A DNA stretch of 64,000 nt, from the IMG/VR virus record IMGVR_UViG_3300027782_004428, positions 1 to 64,000 of that record. One strand, given 5' to 3'. The notes under the pieces are model-generated. The model searched no databases, had not been told where the DNA came from, and saw only the letters and a program-made list of their open reading frames with translations. Below are positions 12,824-63,237 of this stretch, one piece after another (within the stretch, counting starts at the first letter, position 1; every line of letters starts with the position of its first letter). A program made the translations under genes and the position numbers. This DNA comes from a virus.

Positions 12824-14892
12824 TGCCCAGCATACTAACACCACTACAATTGACTGCGGCGGCATCCATGTTGAGCAACAGTGGATTAAAAGGATTTCCC
12901 ACAGCGTTGCAAACGGCCATTGCCACATTCAATGCCACCACAGTGATTGCTAATTTCATTGCCGCGGTGAACTTTTATAAATCTCAGTCATTTGCAACAT
13001 CAAGCACGTTGACTAGTTTGTTGAGCATTGGCAGTACAGTGTGTCCAGCCTTGGGCAACAGCATACCAGCCAGCCCAGTGGGAACCTACACTTATCTCAA
13101 TAGCGAATACCTGATCAACTATCTTGACCCGGTTGACGGATCAACCATTGATCCCAGTGGATTTTCTAACTTGATTGAACAAACCTGCGCGGCCTACCTG
13201 GGCGATGGTGACTATGGTCGATTCAGTCAAGGATTTGTTGCTGTGCAAGGTTATATTGCCAGCACCAACCAGTATATCAATTCGGCAGCAAATGCCAATC
13301 AATTTCTTGGCCCAACCTTTACCAACATGGATTCATTGACCACCGCAGGAATCAGTGGGGTAAACAGCGACCTTGAAAAGTTAGGTGTGGACTTGGCCAA
13401 GCAAGGTAATCTTGTGAATCTTCAGAAACTTGATCTTTACGGCACTCCTGCTGGTTTAATACAACAGACGTCTCGCCTGGCCGGGGTCAGTAGACAAGCT
13501 GTGCCTGCTGTGCAATCAGTCATGAATGCAGCAGGCCTCACAGACAGCGACATTGAAAATATTGTGACAGACAATCGTGTGGGCCTCAATAGACCCAATG
13601 GTCTCAGTCAAAACGAGTTTGATCGCATACAAAAAACTGCCTATTCAGCGTTGTCAACAGTGACAGGTGATGATCTTGCTCAAATCTTGTCAATCCTGGA
13701 TGTGACTACTCCTAACATAACCAATCTGGCACAGTTGTTGGATCCTGTCAAGGTGTTTCCGTTAAGTTATCCAACCATGCTGACTCCCACGCCCACAGGA
13801 GCAGTACCTATATTTGGCACAGGTGGTAGTGTGAATTCCAGCATCACGCCCATTGTCAATTCATATCTGCCCACAGCATCGGGCTGTGATGAACTGGGCA
13901 AAATTATTCCGCCTGCTGATGCAGTGGCCAACAAGGCCATTGAAGTGGCGCTGAAACAAATCAACAACATTGTCACAACCACACTGCCCGAACTAGCGGA
14001 AACAATACTGGGCACAGTAGATCGCGACTGGGATCCAGAACAAGAATATCTTGCCAATGATGTGGTCAAGGTGGACTCAGATGTAGCACCCACATTCTAT
14101 CGAGCCAAATCGCCAGGTTGTACACCGGGTAATTTTGAAGTACCAGCCGGGGTGGACATTACAGACACCAACTACTGGGCAGAAACCACACTGGGTGGAC
14201 TTAGCACTATGAAAGATTTGCCGCTGATACAGGCACAAACCACACCAGTGCCAGCTAGTGTGGCTGAGTTTTTTGCAACTGAAGTGGCCACAGGCACAGG
14301 ACCATGCGGAGTGCTGACCACATACGATGTGCTGGGTCTAGCACTAGACAGCAATGACTTTGCCGCAAGACTAAACACCGCCACCACAGCAATCAATGTG
14401 TTGCAAGCCGCAGGTAGTCTTGCCGCACTGAATACTGCATACTCTAACATTTTGTTGGCTGCAAACAATGCCGCAGTGATAACATTAATTGGTAATGCCA
14501 ACACTGCTATTGCCGCACTCAGTGCCAATCCCAATGTGACCACCTTGAACACAGCATGGACCTACATAGCCAACTTGATGAACATCAGCGCCAAGTACAC
14601 AACACAAGCCGGGGTTGATTATTTCTTATTGCAAGCAAACGATACAAATAGTACCAAGAGTTTTGTGCAAAATTTACCACAATATGGTCGACTCTCTGCC
14701 AACGGCGATGCTGCACAGTTTCTAGAAAATCTAGCAGACACCGCAACGCTGGGTGGCCAGGCAATTGTTGGTACCATGAGAGAAGGCCGCAATCAGGAAC
14801 GGTTGAATGCCAGCGGCTTGTATAACAACACTCAGACACCCAGCGATGCTGTGGTAGCACCAATTCCGGTAATACTCCCAGTTAATACATAA
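12823..14892 (+). CDS. large baseplate/tail-associated structural protein
   Basis: 689 residues, Ala/Thr/Asn-rich, with no signal peptide or membrane segment. At about residues 400-450 there is a W-x-Y-x-D-V-V-x-Y-R-A-x-W pattern like chitin-binding CBM5/12 modules, inserted between helical regions. The gene is coupled to the PAAR tip gene (stop-start overlap), suggesting a baseplate or spike-associated protein carrying a carbohydrate-binding insert. No T4 gene can be assigned. Confidence 0.7.
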   Translation: MPSILTPLQLTAAASMLSNSGLKGFPTALQTAIATFNATTVIANFIAAVNFYKSQSFATSSTLTSLLSIGSTVCPALGNSIPASPVGTYTYLNSEYLINYLDPVDGSTIDPSGFSNLIEQTCAAYLGDGDYGRFSQGFVAVQGYIASTNQYINSAANANQFLGPTFTNMDSLTTAGISGVNSDLEKLGVDLAKQGNLVNLQKLDLYGTPAGLIQQTSRLAGVSRQAVPAVQSVMNAAGLTDSDIENIVTDNRVGLNRPNGLSQNEFDRIQKTAYSALSTVTGDDLAQILSILDVTTPNITNLAQLLDPVKVFPLSYPTMLTPTPTGAVPIFGTGGSVNSSITPIVNSYLPTASGCDELGKIIPPADAVANKAIEVALKQINNIVTTTLPELAETILGTVDRDWDPEQEYLANDVVKVDSDVAPTFYRAKSPGCTPGNFEVPAGVDITDTNYWAETTLGGLSTMKDLPLIQAQTTPVPASVAEFFATEVATGTGPCGVLTTYDVLGLALDSNDFAARLNTATTAINVLQAAGSLAALNTAYSNILLAANNAAVITLIGNANTAIAALSANPNVTTLNTAWTYIANLMNISAKYTTQAGVDYFLLQANDTNSTKSFVQNLPQYGRLSANGDAAQFLENLADTATLGGQAIVGTMREGRNQERLNASGLYNNTQTPSDAVVAPIPVILPVNT

Positions 14893-22342: not shown

Positions 22343-23896
22343 ATGATATTTGGTTTCAGCATCCTGTTCACTGCAATCTTGTTGAGTGCAGTGGCCGCTT
22401 ACTACTCAGTAGCAGGCCTTACTGCCATCTTCAGTGCGGCAACTATTCCTGTGATTATCATGGGCGGTAGCCTGGAACTGGGCAAGATTGTGGCCACTGT
22501 TTGGTTGCACAACAACTGGAAACGTGCTGGATTTTTGTTCAAAGCATATCTAGTGCCAGCGGTAATGTTCTTGATGCTGTTGACCTCAATGGGTATCTTT
22601 GGATACCTTTCCAAAGCACACTCAGATCAAAGTCTAGTATCAGGCGACAGCGTTGCAAAGGTGGCAATCTATGATGAAAAGATCAAAATATCTCGTGACA
22701 ATATTGATGCCAACCGCAAAGCACTTAAACAGATGGATGAGGCAGTGGACCAAGTTATGGGCCGAAGCCAAGATGAAAAAGGTGCCGACAAAGCAGTTGC
22801 AATACGAAGAGGCCAGCAAAAAGAACGGGCTAGGATACTTGTTGACATTGAAACCGAACAGAAAAAAATTACTAGCCTTAATGAAGAGCGGGCACCACTA
22901 GCGGCCGAGTTTCGTAAGGTTGAGTCGGAAGTTGGTCCAATCAAATACATTGCGGCCTTGATCTATGGAGATAACCCTGACTCAAATGTACTAGAACGTG
23001 CGGTACGTCTTGTTATTATCATGATTGTGCTGGTGTTCGATCCACTGGCACTTACATTGATTCTGGCCGCCAACAAACAATTCCAATGGGCTAGAGAAGG
23101 CACAGGTGGCTTCATACATGACGAGCCCCGGTACGAGCCCGACGATGGTCCACTAACTCAAGACCAAATTGATCAACTTGATAAATCGGTACAAGCATTC
23201 CGAACAAAGCCGCCCGATGATCCTATACCTTGCCACAAGTGTGGCACTTCTTTAGTTGATGCACCGGGCATTGGTTTGTTCTGTCCCAACCGAGAATGTG
23301 ATGTTTTTGACAATGTCAAAGGTGAAGAACCCATTACCTTTACAACACCAATTAAGTACCAGTTCTTGGATGAACATCACGAACCTGATATTCATGTGTA
23401 TGACAATGAACGTCTGGTATCAAAGTTTGATAAAATGCAGGAAGTTGAGCCGCCAGACGAAGAACTCAACGATGATGATGCACTCAGAGCCGCTGTCAGA
23501 CAATGGAAAGCCGCCAATCCCGAAGATACGTTGAAGAATCAGCGTTTCAAATTGATCAGAGGAGAAATTTCCGAATTACCTTGGATGGGGCTATTGGCTG
23601 ATAATGAATCGAGAAAAGAAATAAACAGTGGCTTTGGCACACAGTTTCCACTACATGCTGAACGAGGAGATACCTTTGTAAGAGTTGACCGTCTACCCAG
23701 TGTGGTCTATAAGTACAATGGTAACGACTGGATGGAAGTTAACAAAAATCTAACAGACAGTTATACTTACGATATTGCTTATATTGATCACCTGATAGAA
23801 CGCATTACATCTGGCGAATATGATGTTGAACTATTGAGTGAGACTGAGCGTGAGCAAGTAACACAACGTTTACAACAACAAAATACAAACACATGA
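22343..23896 (+). CDS. large membrane protein with coiled coil and zinc ribbon
   Basis: 517 residues. There are about three N-terminal transmembrane helices (5-28, 33-55, 70-92), then a long charged coiled coil (100-190), another membrane helix near 225-245 ending F-D-P-L-A-L-T-L, and a soluble C-terminal half. The latter carries C-x2-C ... C-x4-C (P-C-H-K-C-G ... F-C-P-N-R-E-C), probably a zinc ribbon. I recall proteins of this layout in T4-like cyanophages. Function unknown. Its stop overlaps clpX (ATGA). Confidence 0.75.
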   Translation: MIFGFSILFTAILLSAVAAYYSVAGLTAIFSAATIPVIIMGGSLELGKIVATVWLHNNWKRAGFLFKAYLVPAVMFLMLLTSMGIFGYLSKAHSDQSLVSGDSVAKVAIYDEKIKISRDNIDANRKALKQMDEAVDQVMGRSQDEKGADKAVAIRRGQQKERARILVDIETEQKKITSLNEERAPLAAEFRKVESEVGPIKYIAALIYGDNPDSNVLERAVRLVIIMIVLVFDPLALTLILAANKQFQWAREGTGGFIHDEPRYEPDDGPLTQDQIDQLDKSVQAFRTKPPDDPIPCHKCGTSLVDAPGIGLFCPNRECDVFDNVKGEEPITFTTPIKYQFLDEHHEPDIHVYDNERLVSKFDKMQEVEPPDEELNDDDALRAAVRQWKAANPEDTLKNQRFKLIRGEISELPWMGLLADNESRKEINSGFGTQFPLHAERGDTFVRVDRLPSVVYKYNGNDWMEVNKNLTDSYTYDIAYIDHLIERITSGEYDVELLSETEREQVTQRLQQQNTNT

Positions 23897-25107
23897 AATC
23901 AACAGACCCAATCACAACTTGTAGTTTTTGTGCAAAACACAAAGACGCCGTGGCTAAATTAATAGTAGGAGAAGATGTTTCCATTTGCAATGAGTGTGTG
24001 GAATTATGCGAGACATTACTCAGAGATGAAAACATAATTAAACCCGTTGAGATGACTACATTGGATCCCGAAGATATTAAAAATCATCTGGATCAATATG
24101 TTATTGGACAAGATCGAGCCAAACAAGTACTGAGTGTGGCAGTGGTCAACCACTACAAACGCATTACCAATCCTAACCCTGATATAGAAATTGAAAAGTG
24201 CAACATACTCATGCTTGGCCCAACAGGATCAGGCAAAACACTACTGGCCAAGACAGTGGCACGTTATTTAGATGTGCCGTTTGTGATTGCAGATGCCACA
24301 AGTCTTACCGAAGCTGGTTATGTGGGAGACGATGTTGAGAGCTTGATCAGTCGTTTGTTTGCAGCCGCAGGCGGCGACATTGCTAAAACTCAGCGTGGCA
24401 TTGTATTCATTGACGAAATTGACAAGATCAGCCGTCGTAGTGAAAGTGCCAGTATAACTCGAGATGTGTCTGGCGAAGGTGTACAGCAGGCCTTGCTTAA
24501 ACTGGTAGAAGGTACCAAGTGCAGAGTCACTCCCACAGGCAATCGCAAGCATCCTTCAGGTGACATGATTGAGATTGACACCACCAACATCTTGTTTATC
24601 GCTGGCGGTGCATTTGTGGGACTTGATAACGTGGTCAAGAATCGTGTGCAAGGAACTAGCATTGGGTTCAGTGCCAAAATCAAAGATGACACAGAAACAC
24701 ACTTAGATCAAGTCACACCAGAAGATCTGATCAAGTTTGGTATGATTCCAGAGTTTGTGGGTCGTTTCCCCAGCTGGGTAGCACTCAATGAACTCAGCAA
24801 AGAAGATTTAATTCGTATTTTGCTAGATGTCAAGCACAGTTATATTGCACAATACTCTTGGTTGTTTGAGCAGGACAAAGTAGAACTAGAATTCTCACCT
24901 GAGGCTTTAGAAATGATCGCAGATCGCACTATTTTAAACAAAACTGGGGCCAGAGGATTGCACAGTGAATTAGAGCGTGTGCTATTGCCACACATGTTCT
25001 ATTTGGCCAGTTATCGCAAGCAAGGAATAAACCGTGTATATATTGACACAGATCAGGTAAATACTCCTACCGAACTAAAGGAAGCGAATGGAAAAGCTAA
25101 GAGGTAG
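23893..25107 (+). CDS. clpX: ClpX AAA+ unfoldase
   Basis: 404 residues, a full-length ClpX. N-terminal zinc-binding domain C10-x2-C13 ... C32-x2-C35. Walker A G109-P-T-G-S-G-K-T116, pore loop G-Y-V-G 142-145, Walker B with D174-E175. The IGF loop I257-G-F259 that docks on ClpP is intact. It unfolds substrates and feeds them to ClpP. With phage clpP genes at 39098 and 41290 and clpS at 25913, a phage-made Clp protease is likely. Phage ClpX may also retarget the host ClpP. Confidence 0.97.
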
Positions 25108-25312
25108 ATCAGTACTAGTCACAGACGGCAACGTAGACAAAGCTCTACGTAAATTTAAAAAGAAAATTCAAACATCGGGCATTTTAGACGATGTGCGAGC
25201 CAAAGAATTCTACGAAAAACCCACAACCGAACGCAAACGCAAAAAGTCAGCGGCTGCAAATCGCTGGCGCAAAAAACTAGCCGAACAGGCTTTGCCAAAG
25301 AAACTTTACTAA
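25088..25312 (+). CDS. rpsU: ribosomal protein bS21
   Basis: 74 residues and strongly basic. It has the bS21 pattern: [15 protein letters not shown], then F-Y-E-K-P, then a Lys/Arg-rich C-terminal helix. It overlaps the end of clpX by 20 nt. bS21 sits near the anti-Shine-Dalgarno end of 16S rRNA, so phage copies are thought to bias host ribosomes toward phage mRNAs. A link to the leaderless mRNAs here is speculation. Confidence 0.93.
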
Positions 25313-25333
25313 GTCAATTTTTTTCTGTATAAT
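25305..25333 (+). promoter_or_regulatory. weak sigma70-type promoter
   Basis: TATAAT at 25328-25333, with only a poor TTTACT at 25305-25310 as -35 (17-bp spacer). It drives hsp20. Confidence 0.55.
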
Positions 25334-25340
25334 AAATAAC

Positions 25341-25368
25341 AATGTAGTGCCCATGGTGGGGCTACATT
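25341..25368 (+). promoter_or_regulatory. 5' leader hairpin of the hsp20 mRNA
   Basis: Stem AATGTAG (25341-25347) / CTACATT (25362-25368), extended by CCC/GGG inside. It starts about 8 nt after the -10 box, so it lies at the mRNA 5' end. It may stabilise the RNA or act as a thermosensor; untested. Confidence 0.55.
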
Positions 25369-25402
25369 ACAAGTCATCTTGCTTATATAAAGGAGAAAAC
25401 AA

Positions 25403-25855
25403 ATGACAAAAACTCTCACCCTTCGCTCTTTCGATATTCCCGCGCTTCACAAATTTGGTATCGGTTTCGATAACATGTTTGATGATCTCATGCGTGTGAG
25501 TACTCAACAATCCACTTCAAACTATCCACCTTACAACATTGTGCAAATAAATGAAGATGAGTACATGATCAGTCTTGCTGTGGCTGGATTTGGACTCGAT
25601 AATCTTTCAGTTACCAAGGACAAAAAGTTCTTGATTATTGAAGGCAAAGAGTATCAACCCGATAGCGAAAACATCGTGCCAAACTATTTGCACAAAGGTA
25701 TTAGCAATAGAGATTTCCGTAGAGAATTTCAACTTGCGGACCATGTGGAAATCAGCAATGCTCACCTTGAACTTGGTATTCTAAGTGTTCACTTGCGACG
25801 TGAAGTGCCAGAAGATGCCAAGCCAAAGACTATTGCTATCACATACACTTCGTAA
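25403..25855 (+). CDS. small heat-shock protein (Hsp20/IbpA-like)
   Basis: 150 residues. An alpha-crystallin domain at about 40-135 contains Y-P-P-Y-N-I, then V-A-G-F, and H-K-G-I-S-N-R-D-F-R-R-E-F-Q-L, as in IbpA. The C-terminal I-x-I type motif (T-I-A-I) follows. It holds unfolding proteins in a refoldable state. AAAGGAGAAAAC ribosome site; single gene with a hairpin leader. T4-like marine phages often carry such a gene. Confidence 0.93.
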   Translation: MTKTLTLRSFDIPALHKFGIGFDNMFDDLMRVSTQQSTSNYPPYNIVQINEDEYMISLAVAGFGLDNLSVTKDKKFLIIEGKEYQPDSENIVPNYLHKGISNRDFRREFQLADHVEISNAHLELGILSVHLRREVPEDAKPKTIAITYTS

Positions 25856-25896
25856 TATAATAGTGTAAATACAGTAGGGGCACAATGTCCCTACTG
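25833..25896 (+). promoter_or_regulatory. promoter and 5' hairpin of clpS
   Basis: TTGCTA 25833-25838 and TATAAT 25856-25861 with a 17-bp spacer. An 8-bp hairpin follows: CAGTAGGG (25872-25879) / CCCTACTG (25889-25896). Confidence 0.6.
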
Positions 25897-25912
25897 CTAA
25901 TAAGGAACTGAA

Positions 25913-26224
25913 ATGGCACAAAGCGACACAAAAACACGTATCAAACCACTAGAGGCCATCAAAGAGCCGCCTTTGTATCGTGTGGTATATCTCAATGACA
26001 ACCAAACCACATATGAATTTGTAGTCGAAACCTTGATTGAATACTTTGATTACACCGCGGAAACCGCAGAACAAATCACAATAGACATTCACGATGCAGG
26101 TTCGGCTGTGGTGGCAGTGTTGCCATACGAAATTGCCGAACAAAAAGGTGTAGAAGTAACCATGCTGGCACGAGCACAAAGTTATCCACTGCAAATCAAA
26201 CTTGAACCAGAGATTGTGGGCTAA
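25913..26224 (+). CDS. clpS: ClpS adaptor protein
   Basis: 103 residues, normal ClpS length. P-P-L-Y-R-V-V-Y-L-N-D then T-T-Y-E-F-V-V-E-T-L, H-D-A-G-S-A-V-V, and K-G-V-E-V-T-M-L-A-R-A fit the N-degron-binding fold. ClpS normally delivers N-degron substrates to ClpA. No ClpA is visible here, so it would act on the host ClpAP or block it. AAGGAAC ribosome site. Confidence 0.92.
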   Translation: MAQSDTKTRIKPLEAIKEPPLYRVVYLNDNQTTYEFVVETLIEYFDYTAETAEQITIDIHDAGSAVVAVLPYEIAEQKGVEVTMLARAQSYPLQIKLEPEIVG

Positions 26225-27033: not shown

Positions 27034-27384
27034 ATGAACATAATATTTGGCGATGCCATTAAAGAAATCCCGGACAGTTTTACAATATTAGAACTAGACA
27101 CGTTTCGTACTCCCAATCAAGAGATTCGAACCGCGTACTGTGTGGTAGAAACCATACCACTGTCTGAATTTGCCACACTAGATGACTATAAAAAAATACA
27201 TGCAGATCTTGTGAAATTCTATCGGGAACGGCAATGGAACTATTGTGAGAATGCAATAGAAGGACTCATGGGCCGTTGGAACGGTGAGATTGACACATTC
27301 TACACCAATCTATTGAGTCGTGTGATGCATTTCAAAGAAAACCCGCCATCTGATGACTGGGATGGATTTACTGGAGTCATGTGA
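27034..27384 (+). CDS. conserved-type phage protein
   Basis: 116 residues. Starts M-N-I-I-F-G-D-A and has L-E-L-D-T-F-R, A-Y-C-V-V-E-T-I-P-L and R-Q-W-N-Y-C-E-N-A-I. I recall closely similar proteins in T4-like cyanophages, with no known function. AAAGGAAAC ribosome site. Confidence 0.75.
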   Translation: MNIIFGDAIKEIPDSFTILELDTFRTPNQEIRTAYCVVETIPLSEFATLDDYKKIHADLVKFYRERQWNYCENAIEGLMGRWNGEIDTFYTNLLSRVMHFKENPPSDDWDGFTGVM

Positions 27385-28612
27385 CAGAATTGGGCAAAGC
27401 AAGTAGACTTTGCATGCGTTGATTGTAGTCGGTTATAGCACTATCAAAATTCTGTTTGAATTCACCAATCAATTGGTCGTGCCATTCTGCTGAGAAAAAT
27501 CTTTGTTGATTATACTCAGCAATTGATCTTAGTGCAGCATAAACTTGTTGTTTAGCATCATGCGGCAATGTTGTAATGCGTTTCATCTCGATCAAAATGG
27601 CTTGCAGCCTTTGTGCAGGGTCGGCAATGGTGTCGTAGGTTTCATCGATTATGTTATGAAATGTTTTGAACCCGTAACCGCGAAGATATTCCAGACTGCC
27701 CTGTGTGGCTGCCAGCATAAACGGATGTCCACAAGCAATTGGTCTAAGTATTTTTTCTGTGAGCTGTAATCTATCATCATCGAACAAGGTTTCTAGCACA
27801 ACTTCTATATTGGTAGTTTGATAATCATGCGCACAGTAATCAGCACTTGAGTTACTATCACTTGTGTTGTGGAAAAAATACTGCTCAAGATCTTCTCGTT
27901 GGATTTGGAATTTTTTATTTTGAAATTGATGTTGACGATAATCAACGGAATCTTCACTGTTGAATCCCATGTTGCAATATGGATGCAGTTCATGCTGAAC
28001 CACTAGTTCAGCAAATTTTAATCTATATTCTCTAGTGCCTGACCAAGCACGGTTGTATATCAAAAAGTCTTTGTGTGGATTTCGTTTTGATAATAACAAA
28101 TCATGTTGTGCATATCTAAACCAATCTCTAGCAATCACGCCGTGACACCACCAGTATACTGACACAAAATCTATGTCTTGATACTTTTTCAAATTATTTG
28201 ATCGTTGTTCAGAATGTATTAACAAAACTGGAACTTTATAAAGTGAAAAAGCGTGAATCATCTTGAGATTTAGGTATTGTGTAATTTTTCCTGATAAGTC
28301 TTTAACCATGTTTGTAACAAAATCATCTTGATCTGGCATGAGTTGGAAATCGGGATACAACGATTCAAATACGTCTTGCGACGAATAGAGATCGAAATTC
28401 AATGGCTCTTGATCATGAATGAATATGTTTTTTCTATTTGTTACATTTTGATGTTGTTCTAGGTATGTCTTACTAAGATCATTTGATTTTCCTAGCTTGG
28501 TGATATCGGTGATTTTTCTTGAGCCATGTGGAAAAAAGCCATAAATTACTAGATCGTGATGGTTGCAAACATCATGTAAAAAGTTGTATAATCTATGTAA
28601 AGGAACACTCAT
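27377..28612 (-). CDS. glycosyltransferase-like protein
   Basis: 411 residues. The C-terminal region I-L-R-P-I-A-C-G-H-P-F-M ... G-S-L-E-Y-L-R-G-Y-G-F-K-T-F resembles the donor-site region of GT-B-type glycosyltransferases of phage and surface-polysaccharide loci. I-H-D-Q-E-P-L-N-F-D occurs near residue 65. No signal peptide. It is divergent from the UDP-sugar dehydrogenase gene and shares the CATATG start region. It likely transfers a sugar, with substrate unknown. Confidence 0.6.
   Translation of the reverse strand: MSVPLHRLYNFLHDVCNHHDLVIYGFFPHGSRKITDITKLGKSNDLSKTYLEQHQNVTNRKNIFIHDQEPLNFDLYSSQDVFESLYPDFQLMPDQDDFVTNMVKDLSGKITQYLNLKMIHAFSLYKVPVLLIHSEQRSNNLKKYQDIDFVSVYWWCHGVIARDWFRYAQHDLLLSKRNPHKDFLIYNRAWSGTREYRLKFAELVVQHELHPYCNMGFNSEDSVDYRQHQFQNKKFQIQREDLEQYFFHNTSDSNSSADYCAHDYQTTNIEVVLETLFDDDRLQLTEKILRPIACGHPFMLAATQGSLEYLRGYGFKTFHNIIDETYDTIADPAQRLQAILIEMKRITTLPHDAKQQVYAALRSIAEYNQQRFFSAEWHDQLIGEFKQNFDSAITDYNQRMQSLLALPNSVT
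28563..28592 (+). promoter_or_regulatory. sigma70-type promoter inside the divergent gene
   Basis: TTGCAA 28563-28568 and TATAAT 28587-28592 with an 18-bp spacer. It lies inside the 5' end of the minus-strand gene and points at the dehydrogenase gene. Confidence 0.5.
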
Positions 28613-29851
28613 ATGAAAAAAATTGGATTTATTGGTATCGGCAAACTAGGACTTGACTGCGCGGAAGTTATGGCAGAGAAGCACGAAGTCAGAGGCTACG
28701 ATATTTACCCGCGCACTAGCGACTCAGTAAAAGTTTGCGATATTGATGAATTGGTCAATGAAAGCGAATGGATTTTTATTGCTGTGCCTACCCCACATGC
28801 TGAAGGTTATGATGGGTCTGTGCCCAGCTCACATATGGAGCCCAGAGACTTTGGTCATGATGCTGTGATCAGTGCTATCAACAGTGTCAACAAGTACGCA
28901 AAATCACCAAAGAAGGTTGTGTTAATCTCTACAGTATTACCTGGCACAACACGTCGCAAGTTTTATCCACTGTTAGACAAACAACATCAGTTCTTGTACA
29001 ATCCTTATTTGATTGCCATGGGATCAGTCAAGTGGGACATGGTCAATCCTGAGATGGTCATGATTGGTACCGAAGATGGCAACCCCAATGCACTAGCCGG
29101 CGAGTTAATTGACCTGTACAAGACCATGATGGTAAATGATCCTCGCTATGAAATTGGCACCTGGGACGAATGCGAAGCTATCAAGATCTTCTACAACACA
29201 TTCATTTCTGCCAAAGTTGGCCTGGTCAACATGATTCAAGACTTTGCACTACGTATTGGTCATATCAACGTTGACGTTGTGACAGATGCTTTGGCACGCT
29301 CAACCATGCGTATCATGGGACCTAAGTACATGACAGCAGGCATGGGCGATGCAGGCGCTTGCCACCCACGTGACAACATTGCACTGCGTTGGTTGGCCAA
29401 AGAATATGACATTGGTTATGACTTGTTTGACACAGTGATGCATGCTCGTGAAATCCAAGCCAAGAACCTTGCCATGTTCCTGGTTGAACAGGCCAAACAA
29501 CACAGCATGAGCATTGTGATTCACGGCAAGGCCTACAAACCTGATGTTGAATATTGTATTGGATCATACTCTACGCTGGTAGGACACTATGTTAAACAAG
29601 CAGGACATGATGTGAGATATCTTGACCCATTGGCAGATGATCCTGCTGACGTTATTTCAGAATTGGCTGGTCCTGTGGTCATCCTGTGGGCACACAATCG
29701 CAAGATCACTTATGAGTACACCGGTGATCAACTTGACACATTGCCGTATTGCCCAATTCCACATGGTAGTGTGGTGGTTGATCCATGGCGTAAACTGCCA
29801 CAGATTGAGAACTTGACCGTGGTACATTATGGTAACACACGCAATTCTTAA
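28613..29851 (+). CDS. UDP-glucose/GDP-mannose dehydrogenase family
   Basis: 412 residues. NAD-binding G8-I-G10-K-L-G13, V-P-T-P at about 58, catalytic Cys C250 in G-A-C-H-P-R-D, and K near 201 in I-S-A-K-V-G. This family oxidises UDP-glucose to UDP-glucuronate, or related UDP/GDP sugars, in two steps. ATG 28613 has AAAGGAA upstream. Possible roles are making UDP-glucuronate for a glycan or a glycolipid. It overlaps the next gene by 23 nt. Confidence 0.9.
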   Translation: MKKIGFIGIGKLGLDCAEVMAEKHEVRGYDIYPRTSDSVKVCDIDELVNESEWIFIAVPTPHAEGYDGSVPSSHMEPRDFGHDAVISAINSVNKYAKSPKKVVLISTVLPGTTRRKFYPLLDKQHQFLYNPYLIAMGSVKWDMVNPEMVMIGTEDGNPNALAGELIDLYKTMMVNDPRYEIGTWDECEAIKIFYNTFISAKVGLVNMIQDFALRIGHINVDVVTDALARSTMRIMGPKYMTAGMGDAGACHPRDNIALRWLAKEYDIGYDLFDTVMHAREIQAKNLAMFLVEQAKQHSMSIVIHGKAYKPDVEYCIGSYSTLVGHYVKQAGHDVRYLDPLADDPADVISELAGPVVILWAHNRKITYEYTGDQLDTLPYCPIPHGSVVVDPWRKLPQIENLTVVHYGNTRNS

Positions 29852-30347
29852 ATATCATATTCCCAAGTTTTGGGATGATGAGTTTAAAGAACTGCTCTAC
29901 ATCAACGAACAATTCAATGATGCGGAAAGCCTCGAACGTTGGACCGCTCAGGGCTATGCCAACCGATTCACTGGAGACATGTGTGACATGCGCAGTACTC
30001 AACCTAGTTGGAATGATCGTTTTGTCAACATCTATCGTGAACTAGGTTGGAAAGATATTGGCACCAGTTACTATAGAATGGGCACAGGTACGATTCTTCC
30101 AACTCACGGTGACTTGTATTTGCGTTATGTTGACTTGTTTAATCTTCAGGGCAAAGAGCAACGCATACGCAGAGCCATTGTGTTCTTGGAAGACTGGAAA
30201 CCTGGGCATTATGCAGAATACAATAGCACGGCCAAGGTTGATTGGCGAGCAGGAGATGTAGTCGAGTGGTGTTACGATGCGCCACACATGGCTGCCAACC
30301 TTGGGCTAGAACCGAGGTACACATTACAAATCACAGGATGGGTATGA
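29829..30347 (+). CDS. 2-oxoglutarate/Fe(II)-type hydroxylase, aspartyl-hydroxylase-like
   Basis: 172 residues. A jelly-roll core holds metal ligands H93-x-D95 (P-T-H-G-D) and distal H153, with R163 (R-Y-T-L-Q) placed for 2-oxoglutarate binding. The order matches the aspartyl/asparaginyl beta-hydroxylase-like group. The substrate is unknown; in this operon it may hydroxylate a sugar-linked or guanidino compound. It is coupled to both neighbours. Confidence 0.8.
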   Translation: MVTHAILKYHIPKFWDDEFKELLYINEQFNDAESLERWTAQGYANRFTGDMCDMRSTQPSWNDRFVNIYRELGWKDIGTSYYRMGTGTILPTHGDLYLRYVDLFNLQGKEQRIRRAIVFLEDWKPGHYAEYNSTAKVDWRAGDVVEWCYDAPHMAANLGLEPRYTLQITGWV

Positions 30348-31261
30348 TTAACAGTCACGACGAGTGGAGTCCACTAAAACGCATAGTAGTAGGTTCGGCC
30401 ACCGACGCTAACTGGCCTGTAAATGATCCTGTGTTTGCCAAAGAATCAGAAAAGACAACCTGGAAAGAAACACCTGTTCCGCGTGGACCTGTGCCCCAGT
30501 GGATAATTGACGAAGCCAACGAAGACCTGGATATTCTAGCAACGACCCTGATCGGTCTAGGCGTAGAAGTAGTGCGTCCGGATCCACTCAACTTTCAGAC
30601 CCACGATGGCATGTACAATTATTGCCCACGCGACAGGCTTCTTGTACACGGCTCAACTATTATTGATCCTGCCATGATGTATCCTTGCAGGGACATGGAA
30701 TTACAATGCTATCATGACATTGCGGATGAAGCAGAAAATTATTTGTTCATGCCTCGAAACGAAGGTATGGTGTTGGATGCTGCCAACATACTGCGTCTTG
30801 GTCCCGACAAACTGTTGTATCTAGAAAGTGCCAGCGGTAACAAAGCCGCTTATTATTGGTTGCTGGCCAATTTACCAACCAACACCAGCATTGAACTATG
30901 TAATTTTTATGCCGGTGTGCATATTGATTCAACTATTGTGCCTTTGCGTGAAGGTTTGGTCATGCTCAATGCTAGTCGTGTAACATTTGATAATGTACCT
31001 AGAGTGTTTGATGGGTGGCACAAAATTTGGGTAAACGATGTGGTAGCACAAGGATTCCACGAATATCCTTATGCATCAAAATGGATTGCCATGAACATGT
31101 TGGTGGTAGATCCAAACACAGTCATATGCGACCGAAACCAAACCGAATTGATTAAAACGCTCAAAAGTTATCGATTCGAAGTGATACCTTTAGAACTACG
31201 CCATAGTCGTACACTGGGTGGTGGCTTTCATTGTGTAACACTGGATTTAGAACGCGGTTGA
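30344..31261 (+). CDS. amidinotransferase (arginine:X amidinotransferase family)
   Basis: 305 residues, starting in the ATGA overlap at 30344. The start (S-H-D-E-W-S-P-L-K-R-I-V-V-G) and catalytic triad fit glycine amidinotransferase relatives: D145 (L-D-A-A-N), H193 (G-V-H-I-D-S-T) and C297 (G-F-H-C-V-T). These enzymes move the amidino group from arginine to an amine acceptor such as glycine or an inosamine. The acceptor here is unknown. Its stop codon lies inside the next promoter. Confidence 0.9.
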   Translation: MINSHDEWSPLKRIVVGSATDANWPVNDPVFAKESEKTTWKETPVPRGPVPQWIIDEANEDLDILATTLIGLGVEVVRPDPLNFQTHDGMYNYCPRDRLLVHGSTIIDPAMMYPCRDMELQCYHDIADEAENYLFMPRNEGMVLDAANILRLGPDKLLYLESASGNKAAYYWLLANLPTNTSIELCNFYAGVHIDSTIVPLREGLVMLNASRVTFDNVPRVFDGWHKIWVNDVVAQGFHEYPYASKWIAMNMLVVDPNTVICDRNQTELIKTLKSYRFEVIPLELRHSRTLGGGFHCVTLDLERG

Positions 31262-33421: not shown

Positions 33422-34216
33422 ATGCCAAAAATATACCGCAGTATTTTTATCAGTGATGTGCATCTTGGCACAAGAGACTGCAAGGCAGAAGAACTAAACA
33501 ATTTTTTAAAGCACAACTCGTGCGATACCCTGTACCTAGTGGGTGACATCATTGACGCCTGGAAGATACAACAAAACCGGTGGCGATGGAAACAAAGCCA
33601 CACCAATGTGGTACGTCGTATACTGGGTCATGCCAAACGCGGCACTCGCGTGGTATTCATAGCAGGCAATCATGATGAATTCCTGCGTCCCATGATACCA
33701 TATGGTTTTAGTTTTGGACTAATAGAGATTCAAAATCAAACTGAACACATTGGTGCAGACGGCCGACATTATCTTGTGGTGCATGGAGACCTGTTTGATG
33801 GTATCACAAGACTGGCACCGTGGATAGCATTTTTAGGAGACCGAGCATATGACTTTATTCTTGCGCTTAATAGCCGATTTAATTGGCTACTGCATCGTTT
33901 TGGTATTGGGTACTTTAGTCTTAGCCAGTACCTTAAAAAGCGAGTAAAGAAGGCTGTAGACTTTATTTTTCACTTTGAAAAAAATCTAGCCAATTACTGT
34001 CGAAAGCGCGGCTACGACGGTGTCATATGCGGACACATACATCACGCAGAAATAAAAGAGATCAACGGCGTGATTTACATGAATGACGGCGATTGGGTTG
34101 AGTCATGCACAGCACTGGTAGAACATCATGACGGTGCTTGGGAGATTGTAACATGGACACGAAAAAATGACCAAGAAGATACTGATAATAACAGACAACT
34201 TACCGGATCAGATTAA
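33422..34216 (+). CDS. PlcP/LpxH-type metallophosphoesterase
   Basis: 264 residues. Motifs: D12-V-H14, G-D43, G-N84-H85-D-E, V-H122-G-D124, and G-H205-I-H207, all intact. This family (COG2908-like) includes LpxH of lipid A synthesis and PlcP, a phospholipase C used by marine and soil bacteria to release diacylglycerol from phospholipids under phosphate limitation. LpxH and PlcP cannot be separated by eye. The next gene is a GT4 glycosyltransferase, as in plcP-agt pairs, which favours PlcP. It overlaps that gene by 50 nt. Confidence 0.85.
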   Translation: MPKIYRSIFISDVHLGTRDCKAEELNNFLKHNSCDTLYLVGDIIDAWKIQQNRWRWKQSHTNVVRRILGHAKRGTRVVFIAGNHDEFLRPMIPYGFSFGLIEIQNQTEHIGADGRHYLVVHGDLFDGITRLAPWIAFLGDRAYDFILALNSRFNWLLHRFGIGYFSLSQYLKKRVKKAVDFIFHFEKNLANYCRKRGYDGVICGHIHHAEIKEINGVIYMNDGDWVESCTALVEHHDGAWEIVTWTRKNDQEDTDNNRQLTGSD

Positions 34217-35177
34217 TGGTGTGGTCACCACTTACAAGAACATTGAGGCTTGTGCGGTACTGGATGGTTATACTGTGGATTATATTGACCCCGGGCGGTT
34301 CCGCTATGTTGATTGTCCTGGCTACAACGAAGTCAAACTTGCCATTCCGCGGGCAATGGGCAAGAAGATCGAAGAGATTGATCCGGATCATATCCACATC
34401 GCCACAGAAGGTCCTCTTGGTCTGTGGGCTAGAAAGTATCTTTCAATATGCGATTATAGGTATAACACCGCTTATCATACTAAGTTTCCTGAAGGTCTAA
34501 AAAAGTTATTTGGTATTCCCGAAGCAGTGACTTGGCCGCTGGTGCGTTGGTTCCACAAGCATTCGGGAAAAGTTCTAACCACAACCGAAACCATGGTACG
34601 TGAATTACAATCACACGGGTTTCGGGGCGAAATTGTTCCGTGGACTCGTGGTGTAGACCGTACAATCTTTAATCCCACTCACAGACAAAAAACTATCAGT
34701 CGCTACATCTTGTGTGTTAGTCGTGTAAGTAAAGAAAAGAATCTTGAAAAGTTTCTTGAGATGGACTATCCAGGTTTCTTAAAAATCATGGTAGGTGATG
34801 GACCCATGCTGGAAACCTATCGTCGGCAGTATCCTGCGGTTCACTTTACAGGATTCAAAACAGGAGTAGATCTAGCCAAATACTATGCCAATGCCGAAGT
34901 ATTTGTGTTTCCTAGCCAGTGGGAAACATTTGGCATTGTAATGATCGAAGCCATGGCTTGCGGCACACCTGTCGCTGCATATCCATGTCAAGGCCCAGAA
35001 GATGTTATTGACGAAGGTGTCACTGGCTGTATGAATGCGGACTTAAAGCAGGCCGTCACTGATTGTTTGTTTTTGAATAGAAATCAAGTATGGTCGGGTA
35101 GTCAACGTTGGTCATGGGATCGTGCCTGGGCGATATTCAGAGACAATCTAATTCCGGCGAAGCCGAGCAAGTCCTAG
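34167..35177 (+). CDS. GT4 glycosyltransferase, Agt-like
   Basis: 336 residues. N-terminal G-V-V-T-T-Y loop and the GT-B C-terminal motif E-x7-E (W-E-T-F-G-I-V-M-I-E) with A-C-G-T-P-V-A. It resembles diacylglycerol glycosyltransferases of the Agt and sulfoquinovosyl-type branch of GT4. With the upstream phosphoesterase it could put glucose or glucuronate on diacylglycerol. The 3' end overlaps the desaturase end by 30 nt on the other strand. Acceptor specificity is inference. Confidence 0.88.
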   Translation: MTKKILIITDNLPDQINGVVTTYKNIEACAVLDGYTVDYIDPGRFRYVDCPGYNEVKLAIPRAMGKKIEEIDPDHIHIATEGPLGLWARKYLSICDYRYNTAYHTKFPEGLKKLFGIPEAVTWPLVRWFHKHSGKVLTTTETMVRELQSHGFRGEIVPWTRGVDRTIFNPTHRQKTISRYILCVSRVSKEKNLEKFLEMDYPGFLKIMVGDGPMLETYRRQYPAVHFTGFKTGVDLAKYYANAEVFVFPSQWETFGIVMIEAMACGTPVAAYPCQGPEDVIDEGVTGCMNADLKQAVTDCLFLNRNQVWSGSQRWSWDRAWAIFRDNLIPAKPSKS

Positions 35178-35855
35178 TGTTCTGAACAGGCTGAGCCACA
35201 TCCAGCCTATATCAAATTCATACCAGTTCTTAGAGAGGCGGGCACTCGCTGGGTCCAAGTGGTGGTTGTTGTGCAACTCTTCACCGCCAATAACAATACC
35301 CCAAGGCACAATATTACGACTATGATCTTTAGTTTTGCCATTTCTATATCCAATCCAATGTCCAACGCCGTTTATGACTCCGGCTGCCCAGAAAGGTATC
35401 CATATCATCTGGATGCCCCAGATTACCGGACCCCACCATCCAAACACCAAGACGTCTAGCACAAAGAGAATGCCAATGCCAAGTCTAGAGTAAGGCTGGT
35501 ATACGTGAAGCTCCATCCAATCAGCAGGAGTACCACGACCGTATGTATCAACCATAGTTTTATCTTTTGATGCCGCATGATATAGTACTGCCCCTTTAAA
35601 TAATACCTGCCATATACCGTACACATGAGGGGTATGCGGATCACCTTCCACATCACTGTATCTGTGATGCTTGCGATGTATGGCCACCCATTGCTTGGTT
35701 ACCATGCCTGTGGTCAGCCATAACCAAAATCTCATGAAATGTTCAAGTGCAGGATGAAACTCTATGCCCTTGTGGGCCTGGCCACGATGCAAATACAAAG
35801 TGACACAGACGATGGTAATGTGTGTCATTACCAATGTTGCTATTAATTCTATCAT
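35148..35855 (-). CDS. fatty-acid (acyl-lipid/acyl-CoA) desaturase
   Basis: 235 residues, membrane di-iron desaturase. All three His boxes are present: H23-R-G-Q-A-H28, H60-R-K-H-H64, and H195-N-N-H-H199. Hydrophobic helices lie between them. Enzymes of this group introduce double bonds, usually delta-9. No ferredoxin is nearby, so host electron donors would be needed. It converges on the glycosyltransferase gene and starts 4 nt after a TTAAATAC box. Confidence 0.93.
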   Translation of the reverse strand: MIELIATLVMTHITIVCVTLYLHRGQAHKGIEFHPALEHFMRFWLWLTTGMVTKQWVAIHRKHHRYSDVEGDPHTPHVYGIWQVLFKGAVLYHAASKDKTMVDTYGRGTPADWMELHVYQPYSRLGIGILFVLDVLVFGWWGPVIWGIQMIWIPFWAAGVINGVGHWIGYRNGKTKDHSRNIVPWGIVIGGEELHNNHHLDPASARLSKNWYEFDIGWMWLSLFRTLGLARLRRN

Positions 35856-41289: not shown

Positions 41290-41883
41290 ATGCCAAATCT
41301 AGTACCAATCGTGCTTGAACAAACCTCAAAAGGTGAACGCAGTTATGACATCTACAGCCGATTGCTAAAGGATCGTGTGATCATGCTGGACACAGAAGTT
41401 TCAGAACACACTGCCAGTTTGCTGGTAGCACAAATGTTGTTTTTGGAAAGTGACAATCCAGACAAAGATATTTCCTTATACATCAACTCACCTGGAGGAT
41501 CAGTCACAGCAGGCATGGCCATCTATGATACCATGCAGTTTATTAAATGTGATGTACAGACCATTGTGATGGGACAGGCCTGCAGCATGGGAAGTCTGCT
41601 AAGTACAGCAGGAGCCGCAGGCAAACGTATGATCCTGCCCCATGCCCGACACATGATTCACCAACCATCAGGTGGTGCTCATGGACAAGCCACAGACATC
41701 CAAATCCAAGCACGTGAAATTCAAAAGATGAAAGAATATCTGACCACGATCTATGTCAAGCACAACTCAGCGGGTAAAACCTTTGAGCAGTTGAGTGCAG
41801 ACATGGAACGTGATTTCTTTATGAGTGCTCAAGAAGCCCTGGACTACGGACTAGTGGACAAGATACTTGACCGCCGTGCCTAA
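41290..41883 (+). CDS. clpP: ClpP protease subunit
   Basis: 197 residues, standard ClpP length. Triad S99 (G-Q-A-C-S-M-G-S), H124 (M-I-H-Q-P) and an acidic residue near D171-D175 (M-E-R-D-F-F); I-N-S-P-G-G motif at 65-70. Start at ATG 41290 with AAGGAG; an upstream in-frame extension is noncoding leader. It should pair with ClpX (23893). Two clpP genes plus clpX and clpS form a nearly complete protease set. Confidence 0.96.
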
Positions 41884-43165
41884 CTCAAACATATTCTGCA
41901 ATACTCCGTGGTATGAGCTACACATCTATTGGGATGGTAGTTTAGGTATCTGTTGTCAAGAGTCTCACAAACTCTATGACGACAACAGTTACAACATTGC
42001 CACGACTAGTATTGCAGAATGGTTTAACTCTGACCCTGTACGACATTTTAGGCAAGGTGTCTTGGGCGATCGCCCGGTGAGTGCGTGTTCTAGATGTTAT
42101 CAAGAAGAGATCGTGGGCGGCAATAGTCGTCGCATCAAAAGCAATCAAAAAAGTGTTATCTTCCAGCAGGCGTTTGAGGACAGTTTTGAACAAAGTCCTG
42201 GCCGTAGACATTTTGATGAGTCTGGAACCACTGGTACCCATCCCATTGACATACATGTGGATCTTGGAAACTATTGCAACCTGGCCTGCAAGATGTGCGA
42301 TGCTCAGGCGTCCAGTATCATTGCTTCACAACAGGTCAAGTGGGGGATTGAGTCTAGTAGACAATACCTTGGCACAGATTGGACACAAGATCAACAGGTG
42401 TGGAACAGTTTCCTAACGCAACTGATACACATACCTAAATTAAACAACATTCACTTCATGGGCGGTGAAACACTGTTGACTCGCCGCTTTGAGGATCTTG
42501 TGGATCACTTGATTGCACATGATCGCCTGGATGTGTGTTTCTCTTTTGTGACCAACGGTACTACATTCAAGCCTGAGTTGATGACCAAACTAAAAAAATT
42601 TCGCAGAGTGGGCATAGAAGTCAGCATAGAAACTGTGGATGCACACAATGTTTACCAACGTCAGGGCACAGACAATCAGTTGGTCATGGCCAATCTTGAT
42701 CGATATCAAGATTTGTGCAACGGATCAAACATAACACTCACAGCAAGACCTGCGGTCAGTGCCCTAACCATTGGATACTTTCCGGGACTGCTGGAATACT
42801 GCTTGGATAAAAACTTAATAGTCAAGAGTTTGTTGGTTACCAATCCACAATTCTTAAACGCAGTGATCTTGCCCGACACAGTGAAACAACAATATCTCAA
42901 GCATTATCAAGTTCTACTAGACAGATTAAATAGTGTACAAGTTCCCAAGGACTACAATGCCAGTGATCCAAACAATCATGACATGATTGTGAAAGAACAG
43001 GTGCAAATGTGCATGAATATTTTGCGTCAACCGGCGCCCCCAGACGTAGAACAACAGCGCAAACTCATGGTAGAGCATTGTCGCAAATGGGATCAGGTAT
43101 ATGGGTATGATGCTAGAACATTGTATCCGGAACTGGCAGAGGTATGGACACAGTATGACTACTAA
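41876..43165 (+). CDS. radical-SAM enzyme, twitch/SPASM type
   Basis: 429 residues from GTG 41876 (TTG 41867 is an alternative). N-terminal F-C-N-T-P-W and G-I-C-C give SPASM-like cysteines; the radical-SAM C-x3-C-x2-C is C-N-L-A-C-K-M-C, followed by a partial TIM barrel (F-M-G-G-E-T). A [4Fe-4S]-dependent enzyme producing a 5'-deoxyadenosyl radical. Substrate unknown. It overlaps the clpP end. Confidence 0.85.
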
Positions 43166-48078: not shown

Positions 48079-48969
48079 ATGCACATAGAACCCACCAGCA
48101 GATGCACTTTATCTTGTCCAGCCTGTCCTAGAACATGGTTTTCTGACAGATTAAATCGCGCATTTCCCAAACAAGATTTAGACTTAGATCATCTTGAACA
48201 TTTTTTGGATTGCAAAAGCGGTCATCAAATCAAATCATTCATGCTCAATGGCAATCATGGTGATCCGATTTATTATCCTGATCTTTTGCCCCTGATAGCT
48301 CGATTTAGAAATACCAAATCATTTAAAATCAGCACCAATGGCAGTTACCAAACACCAAAATTCTGGCAAGAGTTATCAAACCAGTTAACAGACAAAGACA
48401 CTGTGTTTTTTAGCATCGATGGACTTGAGCACAACAATCATTTGTATCGAAAAAACAGTGACTGGAAATCAATCATGCAAGGACTGGAAATCATGTCTCA
48501 GGGTCCGGCTCGCGTGGTTTGGAAAACTCTGATATTTTCTTATAACGCAAATGAACTAGATCAAATTCAAGATGTTGCACACAGTCGCGGGGTAGAATTC
48601 ATTGCCGAATCAACCAGCAGATTTGGCGATGATGCCTTGGTCCCGGATACCCACCTGATTGATACCAGTCGTTTGTACAAAAATATTCAAGAACAAGTAA
48701 CCATCCAACCACAGTGTAGCACACAAGAATATATTTCAGCAGATGGATACTATTGGCCGTGTTGTCTAATCACTTCAATGTTTACTTTACATAAAACAGA
48801 ATTATGGAAACAAAGGAAAAATTGGGCTATTCAAAATCAGACGTTAGATCAAACTAGGTTACATTTGAACCACTGGAAACAATCTATTTTGGACAGCCCA
48901 GAGACTGCGCATGATGTGTGTAAAATGAGTTGTAAACCAGGTCAGGAATTTGGTTGGTCCAAAATGTGA
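48079..48969 (+). CDS. radical-SAM enzyme with SPASM-like C-terminus
   Basis: 296 residues. C-x3-C-x2-C is C9-T-L-S-C-P-A-C16, then N-G-N-H-G-D-P and a short barrel. The C-terminus has G-Y-Y-W-P-C-C and C-K-M-S-C, like SPASM auxiliary-cluster ligands. Substrate unknown. It precedes a promoter in which its stop region lies. Confidence 0.88.
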   Translation: MHIEPTSRCTLSCPACPRTWFSDRLNRAFPKQDLDLDHLEHFLDCKSGHQIKSFMLNGNHGDPIYYPDLLPLIARFRNTKSFKISTNGSYQTPKFWQELSNQLTDKDTVFFSIDGLEHNNHLYRKNSDWKSIMQGLEIMSQGPARVVWKTLIFSYNANELDQIQDVAHSRGVEFIAESTSRFGDDALVPDTHLIDTSRLYKNIQEQVTIQPQCSTQEYISADGYYWPCCLITSMFTLHKTELWKQRKNWAIQNQTLDQTRLHLNHWKQSILDSPETAHDVCKMSCKPGQEFGWSKM

Positions 48970-51627: not shown

Positions 51628-52341
51628 ATGAAAGTATACATTAGCAAATATCGAGATCACTGGATCTCACCTTACACCATGTTGGACTATGCATTCTTTT
51701 GGACCGACTGGAGCAAGTGCAGTCGTGACCGGCGTATTCGCAGTCTTGAAGAAGAAAGCAAATATATAGAACATCCAGAGTGGGTAGAACGCTGGAGCGA
51801 TCGCCTGACTCCGGTTAGCCAAGTGATCCAGTGGGTATGGGACCGTGTGCATCCTCCCATCAACTATATAAAAATTGATCACTACGATACCTGGAGCATG
51901 GATTATACTTTGAGTCCCATTATACTGCCCATGCTGAAACAGCTCAAAGAAGCCAAGCACGGTGCTCCGTTTGTGGATGATGAAGATGTGCCTGATCATT
52001 TGAAATCCACAGCCGCACCTGCCAAAGAAAACGAGTGGGACACTGATGCCAATCACTTTGCTCGTTGGGATTGGGCCATGGACGAAATGATCTTTGCGTT
52101 TGAATGCAAAACAGATGACCTCTGGGAAGAGGCTTTCCGTGAAGGAGAGATTGACATGCTGTGGGTGCCTGTGGACAAGGACGGCAATGAAGTACCCAAA
52201 GGTGAGCACCGGTACTATCAAATGAAAGACGGTCCTAAAAATACCTACAAGTGCGATTACGAAGGAATGAAAGTGGTTGAAGCACGTATCCAAAACGGCT
52301 TCCGTTTGTTCGGCAAGTATTATCAAGCACTGTGGGATTGA
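51628..52341 (+). CDS. conserved-type phage protein, unknown
   Basis: 237 residues. Starts M-K-V-Y-I-S-K-Y-R-D-H-W-I-S-P-Y and is Trp/Asp-rich. I recall very similar starts in many phages without a known role. Stop overlaps the next start (TGATG). Confidence 0.75.
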   Translation: MKVYISKYRDHWISPYTMLDYAFFWTDWSKCSRDRRIRSLEEESKYIEHPEWVERWSDRLTPVSQVIQWVWDRVHPPINYIKIDHYDTWSMDYTLSPIILPMLKQLKEAKHGAPFVDDEDVPDHLKSTAAPAKENEWDTDANHFARWDWAMDEMIFAFECKTDDLWEEAFREGEIDMLWVPVDKDGNEVPKGEHRYYQMKDGPKNTYKCDYEGMKVVEARIQNGFRLFGKYYQALWD

Positions 52342-52901
52342 TGAAAATCGTTCGTGTAGAACCTGTTGTGCCCATGGTGAGCATGACCTGGATGATAGGT
52401 TCACGCTGTAACTATGCGTGTTCTTATTGTCCTCCAGAATTACACGACGATACAAGTCCGCATCCTGATCTAGATCGACTAAAATTGGTATGGCAAAACT
52501 TTTATTCAAAGACCCAACAAACCGGACTGCCTTACAAAATATCATTTACCGGCGGTGAAGTCACTGCCAACAAAAGTTTTTTGCCCTTGATAGAATATCT
52601 ACGTAGCAACTACGTCATTGGACAAATGCTTGTGACCACAAATGGTAGTGCCAGCACAGCCTACTATCTGCAACTGTCCGAACTAGTAGATGCAATTAGT
52701 TTTAGTACACATTCAGAATACTGGGATGAACACAAGTTTTTTGAAACAGTGACAGCAGTAAATAAAGTCATGATCCGTCCTGAAAAAAGTTGTCATGTGA
52801 ACATCATGGACGAATCTTGGAATAGAGAAAACTTCCCACACTATCAAGAATTGTTAACTCAACACGGTGTGAGTCACAGTATCAATCTTATCCATGATTA
52901 A
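52341..52901 (+). CDS. radical-SAM enzyme, N-terminal half (split gene)
   Basis: 186 residues from ATG 52341. C-N-Y-A-C-S-Y-C gives the C-x3-C-x2-C motif, then F-T-G-G-E-V. It ends early for a radical-SAM protein, and the missing SPASM-like part is encoded in the next, +1-shifted ORF. Confidence 0.8.
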   Translation: MKIVRVEPVVPMVSMTWMIGSRCNYACSYCPPELHDDTSPHPDLDRLKLVWQNFYSKTQQTGLPYKISFTGGEVTANKSFLPLIEYLRSNYVIGQMLVTTNGSASTAYYLQLSELVDAISFSTHSEYWDEHKFFETVTAVNKVMIRPEKSCHVNIMDESWNRENFPHYQELLTQHGVSHSINLIHD

Positions 52902-62716: not shown

Positions 62717-63237
62717 ATTTTTCCAGTGGATTGACAGTGGGCGGATTTTCAGATTACAACTATGGTGCAATTCCATCGTTGGCCACTGTTGATCTTTCCA
62801 AACTGACAACATCAAGTATCACAATATCAAATACTGCACCATCATACAGTATCAGCAACAGCGGCATCAGCAACCATCGTGCTAGTTTAGGACAGTCAAA
62901 TACAGTTTGGACCACATCGGGCACAGGCAGTATAAATTGGAACCAAAGCGCCGTGGGCGGAGTTTATCATAACCCAGCCATGGAAGTTAACCAAGGTGGA
63001 CAAGTCTCTCTTAAAGGCGACAACGCTGACATTGATATCAATGGCAAGAGCCTGGTCAAATGGATGCAGGTCATGGAGGAACGCATGAACTGGATGCAAC
63101 CCAACGTGGAACTGGAAAAAGAATGGGACGATTTGAAGAAGCTGGGAGACCGCTATCGCAAGTTGGAACAGAAGTGCCGAGAAAAAGCAGACATGTGGAA
63201 GAAACTTAAATCAATGCCCAAACCGGAGATCAGATGA
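62659..63237 (+). CDS. virion-type protein with coiled-coil end
   Basis: 192 residues from ATG 62659. Ser/Thr/Asn/Gly-rich first part, D-I-D-I-N-G-K-S-L, then a charged coiled coil (E-L-E-K-E-W-D-D-L-K-K-L). The pattern resembles virion-associated proteins of marine T4-like phages as I recall. Overlaps nadE (ATGA). Confidence 0.68.
   Translation: MAITINLAEEQENNTTDTINFSSGLTVGGFSDYNYGAIPSLATVDLSKLTTSSITISNTAPSYSISNSGISNHRASLGQSNTVWTTSGTGSINWNQSAVGGVYHNPAMEVNQGGQVSLKGDNADIDINGKSLVKWMQVMEERMNWMQPNVELEKEWDDLKKLGDRYRKLEQKCREKADMWKKLKSMPKPEIR

Follow-up and report, generated by a model that had tools for sequence, protein, structure and literature searches.

The four genes at positions 27377-31261 seem, on balance, to encode the distal half of a phage pathway for the synthesis of a guanidino-bearing sugar and its attachment to a glycan or protein. 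They lie in a 64,000-nt stretch of DNA (hereafter the window) from a 90-kb IMG/VR virus record, and comprise a GT-B-like glycosyltransferase of 411 aa (GT, 27377-28612, minus strand), a nucleotide-sugar 6-dehydrogenase of the UGD family of 412 aa (UGD, 28613-29851, plus strand), a 2OG-Fe(II) hydroxylase of 172 aa (2OG, 29829-30347, plus strand), and a StrB1-type amidinotransferase of 307 aa (AMT, 30338-31261, plus strand). The original prediction had proposed four genes in this interval, and all four ORFs were located where it had placed them. Since these genes are conserved across hundreds of relatives, a chance origin of the set is excluded. The gene identities, the active sites (kept except for a Glu of UGD), the co-occurrence of the genes, and their fusions were observed directly.

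The three plus-strand genes overlap, by 23 bp between UGD and 2OG and by 10 bp between 2OG and AMT. GT is oriented divergently from UGD, and the start codons of the two genes abut (CAT/ATG) within positions 28599-28615. Judged from the sequence and its conservation in relatives, a Shine-Dalgarno-like site of UGD (AAAGGA, 28599-28604, plus strand) is contained in codons 2-5 of GT, within the GT N-terminus MSVPL, which is conserved. The exact abutment of the GT and UGD starts was found in 20 of 75 scored relatives.

AMT has no match in Pfam. In phmmer searches, its best solved relative is StrB1 (PDB 1bwd; 1.2e-64, 222 bits), with HsvA (101 bits), AGAT (93 bits), and SxtG (85 bits) scoring lower. 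The catalytic and donor residues of StrB1, an inosamine-phosphate amidinotransferase with scyllo-inosamine 4-phosphate as its acceptor, are the same as in the phage AMT, which is ~40 residues shorter. C299, H195, and D147 of AMT align to the catalytic C407, H303, and D254 of human AGAT, and D99, D197, R214, and S247 correspond to the arginine-donor site of AGAT (Asp170, Asp305, Arg322, and Ser355). We take the catalytic and arginine-binding roles of these AGAT residues as established. The catalytic and donor residues are practically invariant among ~190 distinct phage sequences, with Asp or Glu at position 147. In both the streptidine pathway of StrB1 and the phage module, a DegT/StrS-type aminotransferase is the likely functional partner. 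However, no Gfo/Idh inositol dehydrogenase was found in the long relatives of this phage (PF01408, 0/13 records searched), which have UGD, 2OG, and GT instead. The streptidine route proper was therefore rejected for the sampled records, although a DegT-type protein is present. A second, deeply separate amidinotransferase-like family occurs in related jumbo phages, either after UvsE or beside the half-length DegT-type gene described below (L051:10427-11587, L060:11974-13113, L067:11700-12848, L070:11977-13116 and 13192-14250, and L212:2048-3064).

UGD matches Pfam PF03721 and PF00984, PHROG 9148 (UDP-glucose dehydrogenase), and UDP-glucose dehydrogenases in the PDB. It shares with the known UDP-glucose/GDP-mannose 6-dehydrogenases the NAD-binding and central domains and the active-site Thr, Lys, Asn, Cys, and Asp, and Thr107, Lys191, Asn195, Cys250, and Asp254 are kept in all scored rows (173-175). 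Unlike those enzymes, the phage UGD has a C-terminal domain that barely matches PF03720, and the glutamates of NPE...EG have changed to NPY...MG throughout a phage-wide subfamily: Tyr132 replaces the Glu of NPE (Tyr in 172 of 173 distinct rows), and Met replaces the Glu of the subsequent EG motif. In known UDP-glucose dehydrogenases, the NPE Glu is linked to thioester hydrolysis and occupies the general base position. Since this catalytic Glu is replaced, the product of UGD appears uncertain from its sequence, and we speculate that the Glu-less enzyme could stop at the aldehyde or employ another base. A UDP-sugar acid, which the original prediction had named as the product, is not supported by an enzyme with Tyr132 in place of the Glu tied to thioester hydrolysis. 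The accompanying claim that UGD, 2OG, and AMT all keep their catalytic residues holds for AMT and 2OG, and for UGD only in part (five residues kept, the NPE Glu replaced).

2OG matched no family, and it was assigned from an AlphaFold model, which was run without the cultured cyanophage row, together with conserved site residues. The model (pLDDT 91.6) adopts a double-stranded beta-helix fold, and its best Foldseek match is the Pseudomonas prolyl-4-hydroxylase 4j25 (E 1e-5), with other 2OG oxygenases and cupins scoring lower. The site HxD...H...R is formed by H93, D95, H153, and R163. Over 202 rows, H93 and D95 are conserved in 202, H153 in 201, and the 2OG-binding R163 in 189, with Lys in 8. 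The predicted fold, the HxD...H motif, and the 2OG-binding basic residue are the features that define the 2OG-Fe(II) dioxygenase superfamily, and they bear out the hydroxylase call originally made for this gene.

GT likewise matched no family profile. Its AlphaFold model (pLDDT 90.0) finds GT-B glycosyltransferases as the best PDB matches, weakly (E 6.5e-3, TM 0.33), and strongly matches uncharacterised phage proteins, one of which has 788 aa and is named as a UDP-glucose dehydrogenase. The protein contains an invariant motif, SE/R/TEK...PF. GT is a fast-diverging member of the module, found in 74 of the 80 nearest loci with a median identity of 47%, versus 66-83% for UGD, 2OG, and AMT.

Among 2.9 million viral contigs scanned, at least 199 AMT relatives were found, and in the best 80 loci, which were compared, UGD, 2OG, and AMT adjoin one another with unchanged order in 80/80. 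Since the entire region from ClpX to UvsE is syntenic in these loci, the adjacency there is weak evidence by itself, and more distant relatives were therefore examined. A query led by the cultured Synechococcus phage S-SCSM2R, in which DegT, rSAM, GT, 2OG, AMT, and GT2 genes form one cluster, yielded at least 488 stretches. The best of these belong to a separate, fully supported AMT clade that is deeply apart from that of the phage studied here. The gene order in the second clade varies (DegT-2OG-AMT, DegT-AMT-2OG, 2OG...DegT-AMT-UGD, or with UGD divergent), and AMT-seeded loci of at least 15 kb contain 2OG in 35/35, a half-length DegT-type protein (mini-DegT) in 35/35, and UGD in 22/35. AMT was present in 31 of 32 2OG-seeded loci and in 19 of 45 UGD-seeded loci. 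Among 80 UGD-seeded loci, 23 contain both 2OG and AMT, 4 AMT alone, 1 2OG alone, and 52 neither, so that 2OG tracks AMT (Fisher 6e-15, with loci that are not independent). The tight core thus consists of mini-DegT, AMT, and 2OG. UGD frequently accompanies this core and also occurs in other sugar clusters, for instance together with NadE-like and carbamoyltransferase genes in phages Bellamy and HTVC008M. Since many UGD loci lack AMT, the enzyme may act in the synthesis of other sugars.

Further linkage is provided by gene fusions. A single ORF encodes 2OG-GT in L285, L368, and L370 and UGD-GT in L289, L368, and L370, and in L195 a 2OG-GT-UGD ORF directly follows mini-DegT and AMT. These fusions join GT, 2OG, and UGD in a single process, and they suggest that hydroxylation and glycosyl transfer are successive steps. 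A 2OG hydroxylase is similarly fused to a glycosyltransferase in Mimivirus L230 and the lysyl hydroxylase LH3, although their hydroxylase and glycosyltransferase families presumably differ from those here. The mutual coupling that had been claimed for UGD, 2OG, and AMT is therefore upheld by their adjacency, by linkage that persists when the genes are reshuffled, and by the fusions, and their homologues, far from being always scattered, are linked in two AMT clades. Two AMT relatives come from contigs assigned to bacteria. L105, with a halogenase and a carbamoyltransferase, is in a Chloroflexi MAG and appears to be phage DNA placed there by binning. A Bdellovibrionota MAG contig (L100:521-4890) with UvrC, 2OG next to AMT, and a GT-like ORF nearby looks like a real chromosome, judging by UvrC, and is possibly a cellular version of the module.

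Mini-DegT, a DegT/DnrJ/EryC1/StrS-type protein of ~197 aa, occurs in 75 of 80 marine loci. Among its profile matches are sugar aminotransferases such as perosamine synthetase, ArnB, and WbpE, and the PLP-binding D86 and K110 are invariant in the alignment, although much of the usual length is absent. Such half-length PLP proteins are widespread in phages (e.g., L184:7227-7820, L195:7415-8017, and L081:9293-9880). At about half the usual length, mini-DegT might not transaminate. In the lineage of the window, the gene is not near UGD, 2OG, and AMT, and it is absent from the window and the remainder of the 90-kb record; it was thus not available to the original prediction. Of eight relatives of at least 200 kb, six encode it elsewhere in the genome and two (G006 and G008) lack it. 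In several long relatives, mini-DegT adjoins a GalE-type epimerase that scores above the NCBIfam cut-off, and in one it lies beside a second amidinotransferase-like gene. With mini-DegT absent both from the 90-kb record and from those two relatives, a source of the amine in this phage has to be presumed.

In the proposed pathway, a nucleotide sugar would be oxidised by UGD and/or remodelled by the GalE-type epimerase that adjoins mini-DegT in relatives, after which mini-DegT would install an amine. AMT would then transfer the amidino group of arginine to this amine, yielding ornithine and a guanidino sugar with a positive charge, and GT would transfer the guanidino sugar. 2OG may hydroxylate either the sugar or an acceptor side chain, which would then be glycosylated by GT. 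The acceptor side chain is an attractive, unproven substrate, because the 2OG domain is fused with GT and resembles prolyl hydroxylases. We infer the order of these steps, the position of the amine on a sugar, and the target. A guanidino-modified sugar, as first suggested for this locus, is the best-supported class of product, given the intact arginine-donor site, the linked sugar aminotransferase, and the fusions of GT with 2OG and UGD.

A virion protein (e.g., a tail fibre) or a host-surface glycan is more likely than DNA as the target. In the marine loci, one neighbouring family matches a tail-fibre PHROG (9/80 loci), which is a weak hint at the virion; a second neighbouring family looks collar-like by eye and has no Pfam or PHROG match. 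More specifically, cyanophages and freshwater jumbo phages might share a dedicated guanidino-sugar route that acts on their own virion proteins, in which 2OG hydroxylates a side chain, GT glycosylates it, and the sugar comes from the Glu-less UGD, the half-size DegT, and AMT, producing a cationic protein glycan. We regard this extended form as tentative and rather unlikely, and we know of no precedent for a cationic guanidino-sugar protein glycan.

Among the other explanations, the one that survives best is that the enzymes make a soluble secondary metabolite, a diffusible guanidino sugar or amino-acid compound acting as an antibiotic or signal, and not a glycan. StrB1, the closest solved relative of AMT, comes from streptomycin-type biosynthesis, and the marine relatives have genes for halogenase, carbamoyltransferase, rSAM, and TPP enzymes as neighbours. 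Clusters of sugar- and amino-acid-modifying enzymes, of the kind in which these marine relatives lie, were described for cyanophages in 2021 by Iyer et al. (PMC7824862, section 3.4.10). They hold glycosyltransferases, epimerases, 2OG and cupin-like enzymes, carbamoyltransferases, and a halogenase, and decoration of surface polysaccharides or, as one option, metabolite synthesis was proposed for them. On the other hand, the GT-2OG and GT-UGD fusions and the many glycosyltransferases point to glycosylation, and the lack of PF01408 in the 13 records searched also speaks against the soluble compound, which we consider unlikely. The word fragment "amidino" has 0 occurrences in the text of PMC7824862, which does not mention a core of UGD, 2OG, and AMT/mini-DegT, and the window comes from another group of large aquatic phages, in which UGD, 2OG, and AMT are arranged compactly. 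No earlier report of the UGD-2OG-AMT/mini-DegT module was found in the literature searched, which mostly excluded subscription papers. We consider the module a variant of the described cyanophage sugar-modification clusters (PMC7824862) with an apparently unreported core.

The guanidino sugar could instead be placed on phage DNA bases. In favour of this, the phages concerned are large and rich in modification genes, and the DNA of some phages is known to be glycosylated. However, PF00303 (the thymidylate synthase/dCMP hydroxymethylase fold) was detected in 0 of 12 records, where contigs may be incomplete and other routes exist, no base-modification neighbour was seen, and the fold of 2OG is nearest to a prolyl hydroxylase in the PDB search. 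DNA, which had been listed among the possible targets, is not supported by these results, and we judge such hypermodification improbable.

It is still less probable that AMT acts on free amines as an arginine:glycine (or lysine/polyamine) amidinotransferase in guanidinoacetate/creatine-type metabolism. Campylobacter phages have homologues with the annotation glycine amidinotransferase, and one paper credits ocean viruses with a creatine-pathway gene, reading a viral guanidinoacetate methyltransferase as creatine synthesis (PMC11360552). Against this stand the scores of AMT, far higher for StrB1 than for AGAT, and the constancy of its sugar-enzyme neighbours. In the Campylobacter phages CP220 and CPt10, the putative glycine amidinotransferase and radical SAM genes form an exchangeable module (PMC2853527, 2010), and this modification cluster resembles ours in having an amidinotransferase of the same superfamily and nucleotide-sugar transferase-like genes. 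However, the CP220/CPt10 enzyme is only 24% identical to the phage AMT studied here, and no UGD was seen in the CP220/CPt10 stretch examined. CP220 gp085, just upstream of the amidinotransferase, was considered as a 2OG homologue and rejected, since it does not align. The least probable alternative, that the genes act independently and are linked only by the shared synteny of the phage lineage, accounts for the conserved ClpX-UvsE stretch of the nearest 80 loci, but it is already largely refuted by the different gene orders of the second AMT clade and by the fusions.

If the guanidino-sugar pathway is correct, chemistry linked until now to aminoglycoside antibiotics is encoded by hundreds of aquatic phages and serves them in making cationic sugars, which would change the recognition, adsorption, or superinfection of phage particles or infected cells. 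Viral annotations as "glycine amidinotransferase" or "creatine" genes may then be wrong. The module also offers enzymes open to testing, namely a sugar aminotransferase of half the usual size, a UGD that lacks its catalytic Glu, and fusions of a hydroxylase with a glycosyltransferase.

Several other genes in the window were noted. ClpX, Hsp20, and ClpS-like genes, named from sequence, stand in a row at 23893-26224 and are conserved across the lineage. Close to the module, an LpxH-like phosphoesterase, a GT4 glycosyltransferase, and a DesA-type fatty acid desaturase (33422-35855) suggest remodelling of envelope lipids. Of three radical SAM proteins (41867-43165, 48079-48969, and 52332-52901), the first and third match families of the marine sugar clusters. 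A DctP-type TRAP solute-binding protein is encoded on this phage contig at 58311-59264 (minus strand), and an NadE-type NAD synthase, whose NadE-like counterparts neighbour UGD in Bellamy and HTVC008M, lies at the end of the window (63234-63998).
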